Shown here piece after piece: positions 2,279-48,172 of a stretch of 64,000 nt of DNA. Position 1 is the first letter of the stretch. Each line of letters opens with the position of its first letter. Below the pieces are notes generated by a model that was not told the origin of the DNA, ran no database searches, and saw nothing but the letters and a program-made list of their open reading frames with translations. The position numbers were made by a program, and so were the translations under genes. The DNA is from Acidithiobacillus sp. AMEEHan. Its GTDB lineage: Bacteria > Pseudomonadota > Gammaproteobacteria > Acidithiobacillales > Acidithiobacillaceae. The stretch covers positions 928,001 to 992,000 of the forward strand of contig NZ_CP118747.1 in assembly GCF_030996345.1 (NCBI RefSeq). Direction: 5' to 3'.

Positions 2279-5720
<3,442 letters not shown>

Positions 5721-5737: not shown

Positions 5738-8700
5738 ATGTCCGGCTTCGGCCGGCGGGGAAAGCAGGGAGTACCTTTTTTGAAGCTGAGTGATTTCGCA
5801 TTTTCAAACTATCTGCAGGCGGAGACGACGCAAGCGCTGGATGCCGCCTTTCTCGATGCACTGCGGCAACGGGACGCGAATCTGGCGCAACGCCTGCTCG
5901 ATCATCGCGCCGGGCGCACCGCACAGGACGGCCAAGAACGCAGTGAATTGTTGCTTGCGCTTGCACCGCATCTGGAAAATTTCCTCGTCGAGTTTTTTGC
6001 CATTGCCGATGCCAACCAAGCCCTGCAGAGCAAGATCCGTGATCAGGATGTGGTCATGGACTTCAAAAAGCAGTTCGTACTGCGCCGGGGTCGCCGCTTT
6101 CGCGGTGAATTCTCCGCCAGCTTTGCCGATCTCCAGACTTGGCTGGATCAGCAGATTCATGCCAGCGGTCTGCCCGCCGACGACCGCGAGTGGTCGATTG
6201 CCCGCCTGGGCATGGGCTGGTTGGCTGACGAGGCCGCATATGCCGAGTCCATCGAGCGCCTCACCCAGTGGTGTGCCCTGGCCCTGAGCGATCCATTGGC
6301 CAAGCTTGCAGTACAGGGCTGGTCGAGTTTTCGCTTGCCGGAACGCATGGATCACGAGCATCTCGTCCCGCTGCAGCACTTTGCCGAACGTCCCGATCAT
6401 CCCCTGGCGGCTGATCCCGCGCAGTGGCGCCGGCGCGATGCCTTCCATCTCACCGATCTGCGCATGGACCTGCGCAGCGCGCAGAGCGAGGTGCATTACT
6501 GCCTCTACTGTCACGACCACGATGGCGACTTCTGCTCCCGTGGCTTCCCCGAGAAAAAGGGCGTGCCGGAGTTGGGCTTCAAGGTCGATCCCCTCGGCGT
6601 GACCCTGACCGGCTGCCCGCTGGAAGAAAAGATCTCCGAGATGCAGATCCTGCGCCGGGATGGCTTCAGTATTGCGGCGCTGGCAATGATCATGGTCGAC
6701 AATCCCATGGTGCCGGCCACCGGCCATCGCATCTGTAATGACTGCATGAAGGGTTGCGTCTACCAGAAACAGGACCCGGTCAACATTCCCCAGGTGGAAA
6801 CCCGCATCCTCACCGATGTGCTGGAGCTGCCCCTGGGCGTGGAGATCTATGATCTGCTGACGCGTTGGAATCCCTTGCGCCGGGAACAGTACAGCGCGGC
6901 CAGCGACAACGGTCGCAAGGTCCTGGTAGCCGGCATGGGGCCGGCCGGCTTCACCATGGCGCACCACCTCCTGCAGGCGGGGTGTACCGTGGTCGGGGTC
7001 GATGGGCTCAAGATCGAGCCCTTGCCGGAGTCCTTGTTGACGGCGCCGGTGCGGGATTGGGATGCCCTGCAGGAAGACCTCGACGAGCGCATCCTCCTGG
7101 GTTTTGGCGGCGTTGCCGAGTACGGCATCACCGTGCGCTGGGACAAGAATTTCCTCAAACTGATCTACCTGAGCCTGCTGCGCCGCCCGGGCTTCCAGAT
7201 TTTTGGCGGCGTGCGCCTTGGCGGCACCCTACGTCTGGAAGATGCCTGGGACCTGGGCTTCGATCATGTCTGCCTGGCTACCGGCGCTGGCCTGCCCCGT
7301 GTCCTGTCCCTGCCCGGCAGCCTCGCCCGCGGTATGCGTCAGGCCAGCGATTTTCTCATGGCCTTGCAGCTCACCGGGGCGGGGAAGGAAAGCAGTCTCG
7401 CCAACCTGCAGGTGCGTCTGCCCGCGGTGGTCATTGGCGGTGGTCTGACGGCAGTGGATACCGCCACCGAAGTCCAGGCCTACTATATCCGCCAGGTGGA
7501 AAAAGTCCTGGCCCGTTACGAAGTCCTGTTGGCGGAAATGGGTGAGGAGAAGCTGCGTGCGGGGTTATCCGCGGAAGATGCCGGCATCCTCGACGAATTC
7601 CTCGCCCACGGACGCGCGGTACGGGCCGAGCGGCAGCGCGCTGCCGCTGCTGGTGAGGCGCCCAATTTCATTCCCCTGCTGCACGCCTGGGGTGGTGTCA
7701 CCCTGGCCTACCGCAAGGGCATGCGCCAGTCCCCGGCCTATACCCGTAACCACGAAGAACTCATCAAGGCGATGCAGGAAGGACTCTTCTATCAGGAAGG
7801 CGTCGATCCCCTGCGCGCCGAGCTCGATTCCTACGGGCATGTGCAAAGCATGGTCTTTCGCAAGCTGCGGGAGGAAGAGGGCCGTTGGGTGGCGACGGGT
7901 GAAGAGCTCTGTCTGCCTGCGCGCGGGGTTTTCGTTGCCGCCGGAACGGTGCCAAATACCATCTACGAGCGGGAATATCCGGGTACGCTGCAGCTCGATG
8001 GCGACCATTTCCAGCCCTATCTCGCCCATGGCGACCGCAGTATGCAGGCGGTGCAGGTGGCAGAGCACTGTAAGGCGCCGGAGCCGGGTCCCTTCACTTC
8101 CTACCACGATGCGCTTGGGCATCGGGTGAGCTTTATCGGCGATACCCATCCGGTGTATCACGGCAGTGTGGTCAAGGCCATCGCCTCCGCCAAGCGTAGC
8201 TATCCCGATGTGCTGGCCGCAATGGAAATCCTCCCTCCGGCTCCCAGGAATGATCTCTCTGCTTTTCAGGAGCGCCTGCGTTCTCGGCTCAGCGCCCGGA
8301 TTCGTCGCATCGATCGCAGCAACCCAGCGGTATGCGAACTCTGGGTCGAGGCGCCCGCGGCGGCCAAGAACTTTGCCCCCGGGCAGTTTTTCCGTCTGCA
8401 GACCTTTGAAACCGGCAGCCCCGTGGTCGACAAAACCCGCTTGCAGATCCCGGTCCTCACCGTCAGCGGTGCTGGAGTGGAAGGCGACTTGATCCGGCTG
8501 ATGGTCCTGCAATGGGGTACGGCGCCGCGCATCGCCGGTCGCTTGCAAGAAGGTGACCCGGTCCTGCTCATGGGACCGACGGGAGCGCCGACGGATATTC
8601 CCCAAGGCAAGACCATCGCTATCGTTGCCGGGCGCTGGGGAGCGGCAGTGATGCTCGACATCGGCCCCGCCCTGCGGGCTGCGGGTAACCGGGTGCTCTA

Positions 8701-9259
8701 TGTGGCCGCCTTCACCCAGGCGAGCGAGCTCGACCATCAGGAGGAACTGGAGGCGGCGGCGGATCAGATTCTCTGGTGCACCGCCAAAGGTCCGTTGATC
8801 GCCGCGCGGCGTCCCCAGGACCGCAGCGTCGAAGCCAGTGACATGGTGCAGTTGCTGCGCGATTACGCTGCCGGCAAGCTGGCGGGTGAAGCTGCCGGTA
8901 TCTCCCTGAAGGAGGTCGACCGTCTCATGGTCATGGGCTCCACGGGCCTTCTCAAGGGCTTCCAGTCGGCCCTGCGCGGCGATTTGGCAGAAGTTTTCCC
9001 GCCGCACTTGGAAGCCGTGGCGACTGTCGGCAGCCCCATGCAGTGCATGCTCAAGGGCGTTTGCGCCCAATGCCTGCAGTGGCAGGTCGATCCGGAAACC
9101 GGCAAACGTACCAAGGCCGTGTTCACCTGTGCCGGTCAGGATCAACCCCTGGCCTGGGTCGATCTCGATAACCTCACCGCCCGGCAAGGACAGAACCGCC
9201 TGCTTGAGCGTCTTTCCAGCCATTGGCTGGACCATGTACTGGAGCGCGCCGACGCCTGA
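5738..9259 (+). CDS. Large fused FAD/Fe-S pyridine nucleotide oxidoreductase (GltD/NfnB-like plus PyrK/NfnA-like)
   Basis: The 1173-residue protein has three parts. Residues about 1-240 are not recognised. The middle begins with Cys-rich segments (CLYC at 255-258, Cys265, Cys293, then C333-x2-C336-x3-C340 followed by the IP segment seen in glutamate synthase small-subunit Fe-S domains). Two dinucleotide folds follow: GMGPAG near 398 and IGGGLTAVDTA near 564. The C-terminal third resembles a ferredoxin-NADP reductase/PyrK module (APGQFFRLQ) and ends in a 2Fe-2S-type cysteine cluster from Cys1103 (CMLKGVCAQC, with a last Cys in FTCAGQ). The order recalls NfnB plus NfnA (SudA/SudB) fused in one chain, so electron transfer between NAD(P)H and a low-potential carrier is likely, but the substrate is unknown. 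ATG 5738 follows AGGGAAAGG; TTG 5780 is an alternative start. Confidence 0.8.
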   Translation: MSGFGRRGKQGVPFLKLSDFAFSNYLQAETTQALDAAFLDALRQRDANLAQRLLDHRAGRTAQDGQERSELLLALAPHLENFLVEFFAIADANQALQSKIRDQDVVMDFKKQFVLRRGRRFRGEFSASFADLQTWLDQQIHASGLPADDREWSIARLGMGWLADEAAYAESIERLTQWCALALSDPLAKLAVQGWSSFRLPERMDHEHLVPLQHFAERPDHPLAADPAQWRRRDAFHLTDLRMDLRSAQSEVHYCLYCHDHDGDFCSRGFPEKKGVPELGFKVDPLGVTLTGCPLEEKISEMQILRRDGFSIAALAMIMVDNPMVPATGHRICNDCMKGCVYQKQDPVNIPQVETRILTDVLELPLGVEIYDLLTRWNPLRREQYSAASDNGRKVLVAGMGPAGFTMAHHLLQAGCTVVGVDGLKIEPLPESLLTAPVRDWDALQEDLDERILLGFGGVAEYGITVRWDKNFLKLIYLSLLRRPGFQIFGGVRLGGTLRLEDAWDLGFDHVCLATGAGLPRVLSLPGSLARGMRQASDFLMALQLTGAGKESSLANLQVRLPAVVIGGGLTAVDTATEVQAYYIRQVEKVLARYEVLLAEMGEEKLRAGLSAEDAGILDEFLAHGRAVRAERQRAAAAGEAPNFIPLLHAWGGVTLAYRKGMRQSPAYTRNHEELIKAMQEGLFYQEGVDPLRAELDSYGHVQSMVFRKLREEEGRWVATGEELCLPARGVFVAAGTVPNTIYEREYPGTLQLDGDHFQPYLAHGDRSMQAVQVAEHCKAPEPGPFTSYHDALGHRVSFIGDTHPVYHGSVVKAIASAKRSYPDVLAAMEILPPAPRNDLSAFQERLRSRLSARIRRIDRSNPAVCELWVEAPAAAKNFAPGQFFRLQTFETGSPVVDKTRLQIPVLTVSGAGVEGDLIRLMVLQWGTAPRIAGRLQEGDPVLLMGPTGAPTDIPQGKTIAIVAGRWGAAVMLDIGPALRAAGNRVLYVAAFTQASELDHQEELEAAADQILWCTAKGPLIAARRPQDRSVEASDMVQLLRDYAAGKLAGEAAGISLKEVDRLMVMGSTGLLKGFQSALRGDLAEVFPPHLEAVATVGSPMQCMLKGVCAQCLQWQVDPETGKRTKAVFTCAGQDQPLAWVDLDNLTARQGQNRLLERLSSHWLDHVLERADA

Positions 9260-45382: not shown

Positions 45383-45715
45383 TCAGGGACGATCTCGCCG
45401 CAGCAGCGGCAGCTTGTTCTTCTTCCCCTTGAATTCTTCTGCCTGGGGCAGCGCCGCTTTTTTACGCAGTATGACGGGCCAGTGGCGGGTAAGCTCGGCA
45501 TTCAGGGCGGTGAAATGTTTCTGGTCCTCCGGTACGTCATCTTCGGCATAGATCGCATCGGCAGGACACTCGGGAATACAGGCAGCACAGTCTATACATT
45601 CGGCGGGATCGATGACCAAAAAATTGGGCCCCTCGTGAAAGCATTCGACCGGGCAGACTTCGGCACAATCCGTGTATTTGCATTCGATACAATTTTCGGT
45701 GACGACGTAGGTCAT
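45383..45715 (-). CDS. fdxA: Seven-iron ferredoxin FdxA
   Basis: This 110-residue protein has the pattern [21 protein letters not shown] followed by [12 protein letters not shown], which gives one 3Fe-4S and one 4Fe-4S cluster as in Azotobacter ferredoxin I. It is a soluble low-potential electron carrier. It stands three bases after topA and before minC. A functional link with its neighbours is not evident, but it is a possible partner for the redox enzyme at 5738. Confidence 0.95.
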
Positions 45716-45718
45716 ACT

Positions 45719-48172
<2,454 letters not shown>

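Follow-up and report, generated by a model that had tools for sequence, protein, structure and literature searches.

A fused NfnAB-like flavoprotein next to gyrB in Acidithiobacillus sp. AMEEHan as a candidate NADPH:FdxA oxidoreductase

What is the task of the large fused flavoprotein encoded directly behind gyrB in Acidithiobacillus sp. AMEEHan? In the stretch of 64,000 nucleotides analysed here (the window), an uninterrupted frame starts 17 bp after the stop codon of gyrB (5720):

3201 to 5720, plus strand: gyrB (open frame), immediately upstream of the fused flavoprotein gene
5738 to 9259, plus strand: fused flavoprotein, 1173 aa and a stop codon (translation, homologue conservation; possible TTG start at 5780)

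The true start may be the TTG at 5780 (residue 15), which is where the conservation of the family begins, and residues 1–12 have a pLDDT below 50 in the predicted structure. The gene is single-copy in its own genome, most relatives within the Acidithiobacillaceae carry it with 73–92% identity (several draft copies are cut by contig ends), and the linkage to gyrB is kept in much of the Acidithiobacillaceae. Genome comparisons suggest that the protein exchanges electrons between NADPH and FdxA in bacteria lacking the usual enzyme, and we hold with moderate confidence that it is a soluble NADPH:FdxA oxidoreductase replacing the stand-alone ferredoxin-NADP reductase Fpr.

The anatomy of the protein was read from Pfam and PDB sequence searches and from an AlphaFold2 model built on a 45-sequence alignment (mean pLDDT 88.5, pTM 0.89), while residue conservation was scored over 45 homologues. 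The following parts were recognized:

5738 to 6457, plus strand: N-terminal domain, residues 1-240, mostly helical (predicted structure; Pfam and PDB searches)
6458 to 6817, plus strand: double [4Fe-4S] (Fer4_20-like) domain, residues 241-360 (Pfam; invariant ligands)
6908 to 8227, plus strand: GltD/NfnB-like FAD and NADP(H) Rossmann domains, residues 391-830 (Pfam, profile comparison, conservation)
7136 to 7138, plus strand: R467 codon (aligned with R201 of the P. furiosus NfnI large chain)
7487 to 7687, plus strand: helical insertion in the NADP domain, residues 584-650, absent from GltD/NfnB (model, profile alignment)
8291 to 9022, plus strand: NfnA/PyrK-like FNR-type domain, residues 852-1095 (PDB sequence searches, model, alignment)
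9044 to 9130, plus strand: C-x5-C-x2-C-x18-C cluster motif, residues 1103-1131 (four invariant cysteines)

The first ~240 residues, predicted with high confidence to be mostly helical, have no match in the Pfam search or the PDB sequence search. The next domain matches Fer4_20 at E 3e-4, just under the Pfam cut-off, and its candidate [4Fe-4S] ligands C255, C258, C266, C293, C333, C336, C340 and E354 are invariant in 45/45 homologues; E354 lies where the Nfn motif has its glutamate. In the GltD/NfnB-like part (Pyr_redox_2, E 2e-11), G399/G401/P402/A403/G404, R467 and Y658-R659 are invariant, with Lys (25/45) or Arg (20/45) at position 660; this Y658-R659-K/R660 triad, a possible counterpart of the two arginines that bind the NADP 2'-phosphate in Nfn, resembles an NADP site. 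According to Liang et al. (PMC6405883), every Nfn has an arginine hydrogen-bonded to N5 of the bifurcating b-FAD. R467 aligns with R201 of NfnI, which we take to be that arginine, and a counterpart of it therefore appears to be present. The C-terminal part matches P. furiosus NfnI beta at E 2e-10 with the single sequence and 8e-18 with the family profile, and Nfn chains of P. furiosus and T. maritima match both halves; the resemblance to NfnAB is one of sequence profiles. C1103, C1109, C1112 and C1131 are invariant in 45/45 homologues. The initial annotation had described a single-chain NfnAB-like fusion of 1173 residues beside gyrB, with a GltD/NfnB-like part, a PyrK/NfnA-like part bearing its own cysteines and an unknown N-terminal domain of 240 residues, and this description is borne out by the open frame, the Pfam and PDB matches and the invariant cysteines.

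The protein is a member of an uncharacterised, widespread bacterial family. Among named models, NF005128/PRK06567 comes closest (E 5e-187, 624 bits; best-matching stretch, residues 26–709). Labelled putative bifunctional glutamate synthase beta / 2-polyprenylphenol hydroxylase, it is also single-chain and shows homology over one stretch of 680 residues and two further stretches; it differs in having 1031 positions, and the 624 bits of the window protein lie below its curated cut-off of 1072. A literature search by model name found no tested function for PRK06567/NF005128, and no clear orthology to a characterised enzyme of another function appeared. The family name NF005128 and the homology to GltD (hhalign probability 96.8%) would make the protein a relative of the glutamate-synthase small subunit passing NADPH electrons to a partner enzyme. 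The double-cluster/FAD/NADP fold is indeed shared, but GltD is without the C-terminal FNR module, the GltD of the same genome has Lys at the R467 position as read from the alignment, the clustered loci show no conserved gltB neighbour, and a complete, canonical gltBD is present at another locus of the same genome (G000), for which reason the GOGAT small subunit (GltD) was rejected as an identity; we regard the broader relationship of function as very unlikely. The model name also occurs in Neorickettsia, and for Neorickettsia helminthoeca it was the basis on which glutamine-to-glutamate conversion and glutamine catabolism were proposed (PMC5481527). If that protein belongs to the present family, its anatomy alone would give such a reaction no support, and the NADPH:FdxA reading, if true, would correct the annotation as glutamate synthase beta / 2-polyprenylphenol hydroxylase on which the proposal was built.

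A true fused Nfn, namely a bifurcating NADH-dependent ferredoxin:NADP+ oxidoreductase taking NADH at the C-terminal FAD, would fit the module set, which is that of Nfn, the invariant R467 at the aligned position of NfnI R201, and the NCBIfam ranking, in which PRK12778 (fused Nfn type) comes second. The Nfn signature motifs (Asp-ligated [2Fe-2S], ERxPxT) were taken from PMC6405883. In the NfnB-like half, the [4Fe-4S] ligand residues of Nfn are present (seven Cys and E354, 45/45), while the literal motifs RCx2Cx4Cx3CPV and GRVCPQExQCx3Cx13Gx2ER are unmatched, the spacing here being Cx2Cx7Cx26CP and CNDCx3C. In the NfnA-like half, the Asp-ligand motif DGTGMCGxCRx10CV is absent and replaced by MQCMxKxxCxQC...C with four Cys (45/45 homologues), and the a-FAD strand ERxPxT was not found in the aligned region of the 45 sequences. 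The C-terminal nucleotide loop contains GGG in 20/45 homologues, as a true Nfn might, and AGRWGAA or another sequence in the rest; this glycine-rich loop is degenerate (AGRWGAA) in the window protein, lost in Acidithiobacillus and degenerate in several other lineages. Nfn proteins themselves also vary in their NAD site (PMC6405883). The invariant [4Fe-4S] and NADP residues together with the missing C-terminal hallmarks indicate that the NADPH/ferredoxin half is Nfn-like and conserved and the NADH half is not. Because it fails several tested hallmarks, the flavoprotein is not filed as Nfn, though it is related to Nfn; as the family also occurs mostly in aerobic lineages, we consider a true fused Nfn quite unlikely. 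Bifurcation in the manner of Nfn, as proposed in the initial annotation, is accordingly not upheld, and of the balance among NADH, NADPH and ferredoxin that it envisaged, the ferredoxin/NADPH part is favoured by anatomy and genome context, whereas the NADH part finds no support, the NfnA motifs being absent and the loop lost in Acidithiobacillus. Sud, sulfide dehydrogenase or NADPH polysulfide reductase, is another name for Nfn-type proteins and had been suggested as well. The host probably oxidises sulfur and second copies of the gene lie within sulfonate-type operons, but the 45 homologues lack the Asp with which Sud ligates its Asp(Cys)3 [2Fe-2S] cluster, the family is found in many bacteria without known sulfur oxidation, and nothing specific favours sulfur reduction, which makes this role barely credible.

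Compared with NfnAB (T. maritima 4YRY, P. furiosus NfnI 5JCA), the protein shares the large part with two [4Fe-4S] clusters, FAD and NADP(H), the small part with FNR-like and Fe-S modules, and the aligned b-FAD arginine and Glu ligand; it differs in being one chain with 240 extra N-terminal residues, an extra stretch of ~65 aa within the NADP domain, ~26 residues separating Cys 3 from Cys 4, Cys4 in place of the Asp-Cys3 [2Fe-2S], no ERxPxT and a variable NAD loop. PyrK likewise has an FNR-like domain and a four-Cys [2Fe-2S] cluster, but it is a separate subunit of DHOD B and its Cys spacing differs from that of the window protein. The best PDB sequence match is 5VJ7 (E 1e-22 with the family profile), which we take to be P. 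furiosus NfnII. Through its NAD-independent ferredoxin:NADP activity (PMC6405883), NfnII is also the closest functional precedent, although it has two subunits, comes from a hyperthermophilic archaeon and is without the N-terminal domain. The fused Nfn of Pattern C, found in Actinobacteria, Alpha- and Gammaproteobacteria and described as exceeding the fused clostridial Nfn (2,274-bp gene) by about 200 aa, is similarly a single, uncharacterised chain with the large part first and the small part C-terminal (Liang et al. 2019, PMC6405883). By our estimate such proteins have ~950 aa, against 1173 aa for the window protein. PRK12779 (944-aa model), presumably of the Pattern C type, matches the window protein weakly (69 bits).

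The evidence for the proposed partner is indirect and comes from co-occurrence and operon linkage, and the initial annotation guessed well in naming fdxA as relevant. The window contains this gene at some distance:

45395 to 45715, minus strand: fdxA (scores above the NCBIfam FdxA cut-off), the proposed redox partner

It lies 36 kb from the flavoprotein gene, in a separate operon in this genome, and within window 45395-48172 it adjoins an 817-aa minus-strand ORF that we take to be mutS. Homologues of the flavoprotein are present in 71 of the 369 sampled Gammaproteobacteria, including two 99%-complete genomes of 0.9 and 1.0 Mb. FdxA occurs in 70/71 genomes with the gene and in 227/298 without it (Fisher p 1.2e-6), while E. 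coli-type Fpr occurs in 6/71 and 107/298, respectively (p 1.5e-6), both values being uncorrected for phylogeny. Collapsed to families, 39 of which carry the gene and 6 of these 39 also Fpr, the Fpr result is weaker (p about 0.001–0.03, depending on the assumed family number). Reductase profiling covered the E. coli-type Fpr, one of several FNR types that also include TrxR-like and adrenodoxin-like ones. In its own genome, there is no Fpr match at E 1e-25. The flavoprotein candidates there include a TrxB, recognized by the motif CATC, as well as three FNR-like reductases with 2Fe-2S and ~340–350 aa, among which there may be another ferredoxin reductase. Several points count against a replacement of Fpr: FdxA is common anyway, the fdxA in the window is 36 kb away, and 191 genomes have neither Fpr nor the flavoprotein gene. 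E. coli Fpr, whose cellular task is the one proposed here for the flavoprotein, is a 248-aa FNR without Fe-S clusters or an NfnB-like part, and a simple FNR would need neither the extra C-terminal module nor the 240-aa N-terminus.

As an NADPH:FdxA oxidoreductase, the protein would bind NADPH at the NfnB-like domain and reduce a buried FAD there, from which electrons could leave via the proximal and then the distal [4Fe-4S] cluster to a docked FdxA. The C-terminal FNR-like module with its presumed all-cysteine [2Fe-2S] might serve as a second one-electron exit or as a storage or relay site. The likely cellular direction is from NADPH to FdxA, which would provide Fe-S and flavin enzymes of biosynthesis with electrons of low potential. 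A related scheme is a flavin-bifurcating NADPH:FdxA reductase, in which the high-potential branch (the C-terminal [2Fe-2S] and FNR-like domain) serves an acceptor other than NAD+. It would account for the conservation of the low-potential branch ligands and R467, and of the four C-terminal cysteines although the NAD loop is not conserved. It is also generally known that 7Fe ferredoxins have a very low-potential cluster, which is poorly reduced by NADPH alone. However, the gene neighbourhoods point to no such acceptor, and we consider this scheme rather unlikely. Equally doubtful is its wider form, a widespread single-chain bifurcating reductase in largely aerobic hosts that keeps the low-potential branch of Nfn, has an all-cysteine [2Fe-2S] and uses a new high-potential acceptor in place of NAD+, and that would replace Fpr by delivering 7Fe ferredoxin in a strongly reduced state. 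FdxA is among the commonest proteobacterial ferredoxins, and in the literature we did not find its reducing enzyme assigned for bacteria without Fpr; the flavoprotein family is a concrete, testable candidate, and the NADPH:FdxA reading, if true, would give metabolic models of acidophiles an NADPH-ferredoxin link.

Besides Acidithiobacillus, homologues are found in Methylococcales, Ectothiorhodospiraceae, Ignatzschineria, Legionellales, Rhodospirillales, Acidobacteria, a Nitrospirota MAG and Sulfuriferula (taxa per database records). Given this spread over methanotrophs, Legionellales, Ignatzschineria, Rhodospirillales and Acidobacteria, a lithotroph-specific role was rejected, and the tie to sulfur- or iron-oxidising autotrophy drawn in the initial annotation finds no support.

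No operon or neighbourhood conserved across the family was found in 106 loci. A recurrent arrangement consists of a GntR regulator, an AprA-like flavoprotein (NCBIfam PRK08275), a HEAT protein, FdxA and the enzyme, preceded or followed by a sulfonate-type ABC transporter. The fdxA gene stands directly upstream of the enzyme gene in two draft Acidithiobacillaceae genomes (G011 and G026), in Acidithiobacillus KUB_Bin07 and on the A. caldus plasmid pTcM1, where the annotation gives fdxA and then an FAD-dependent oxidoreductase. Transporter genes lie between the two in operon-like clusters of L035 (family f2) and L129 (a Sulfuriferula MAG), and contig C77 of G009 has the same cluster at its end. 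On pTcM1 (L174:6361-20324, NC_010600.1), enzyme and fdxA are plasmid cargo within the sulfonate-type operon, which has an ISL3-like transposase inside its ABC transporter region. Among 51 plasmid records with the AprA-like flavoprotein of this operon, the enzyme is present in pTcM1 only, and the Cupriavidus p2 operon, the one inspected among the other plasmids, has neither fdxA nor the enzyme. For such modules, organosulfonate uptake and assimilation have been proposed in a recent plasmid survey (PMC12375680), and the asfAB reductase/ferredoxin pair (PMC4267179) is a possible parallel. The second copies might also deliver electrons to the sulfonate-utilisation flavoprotein.

Apparently two copies, one behind gyrB and one behind fdxA, are present in the draft genomes G011 (L163, L164, L165, L166, L024) and G026 (L167, L168, L023), where a single contig holds the middle ~3.3 kb and is joined by two alternative left ends and, in G011, by two right ends as well; this implies copies that are nearly identical in their cores and diverge at their ends. 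The overlap with contig C230 in G011 is 198 bp at 100% for each of the two 5' ends, and the same holds for the two 3' ends, as if the assembly had collapsed two copies that are identical in the middle (residues ~68-1156) and differ outside it. The pattern is consistent with gene conversion or recent copying.

In addition, reading of the sequences showed that FdxA and a monothiol glutaredoxin-like protein adjoin the gene at three loci (L029, L030 and L123), with a NadA-like protein downstream at the first two, neighbours that would suit an Fe-S theme. In a 1035-aa version from a 1.4-Mb genome (L044:1477-4578, minus strand; 33% identical), part of the FNR-like nucleotide domain at the C-terminus is gone but all cluster cysteines are kept, in line with a dispensable NAD site.
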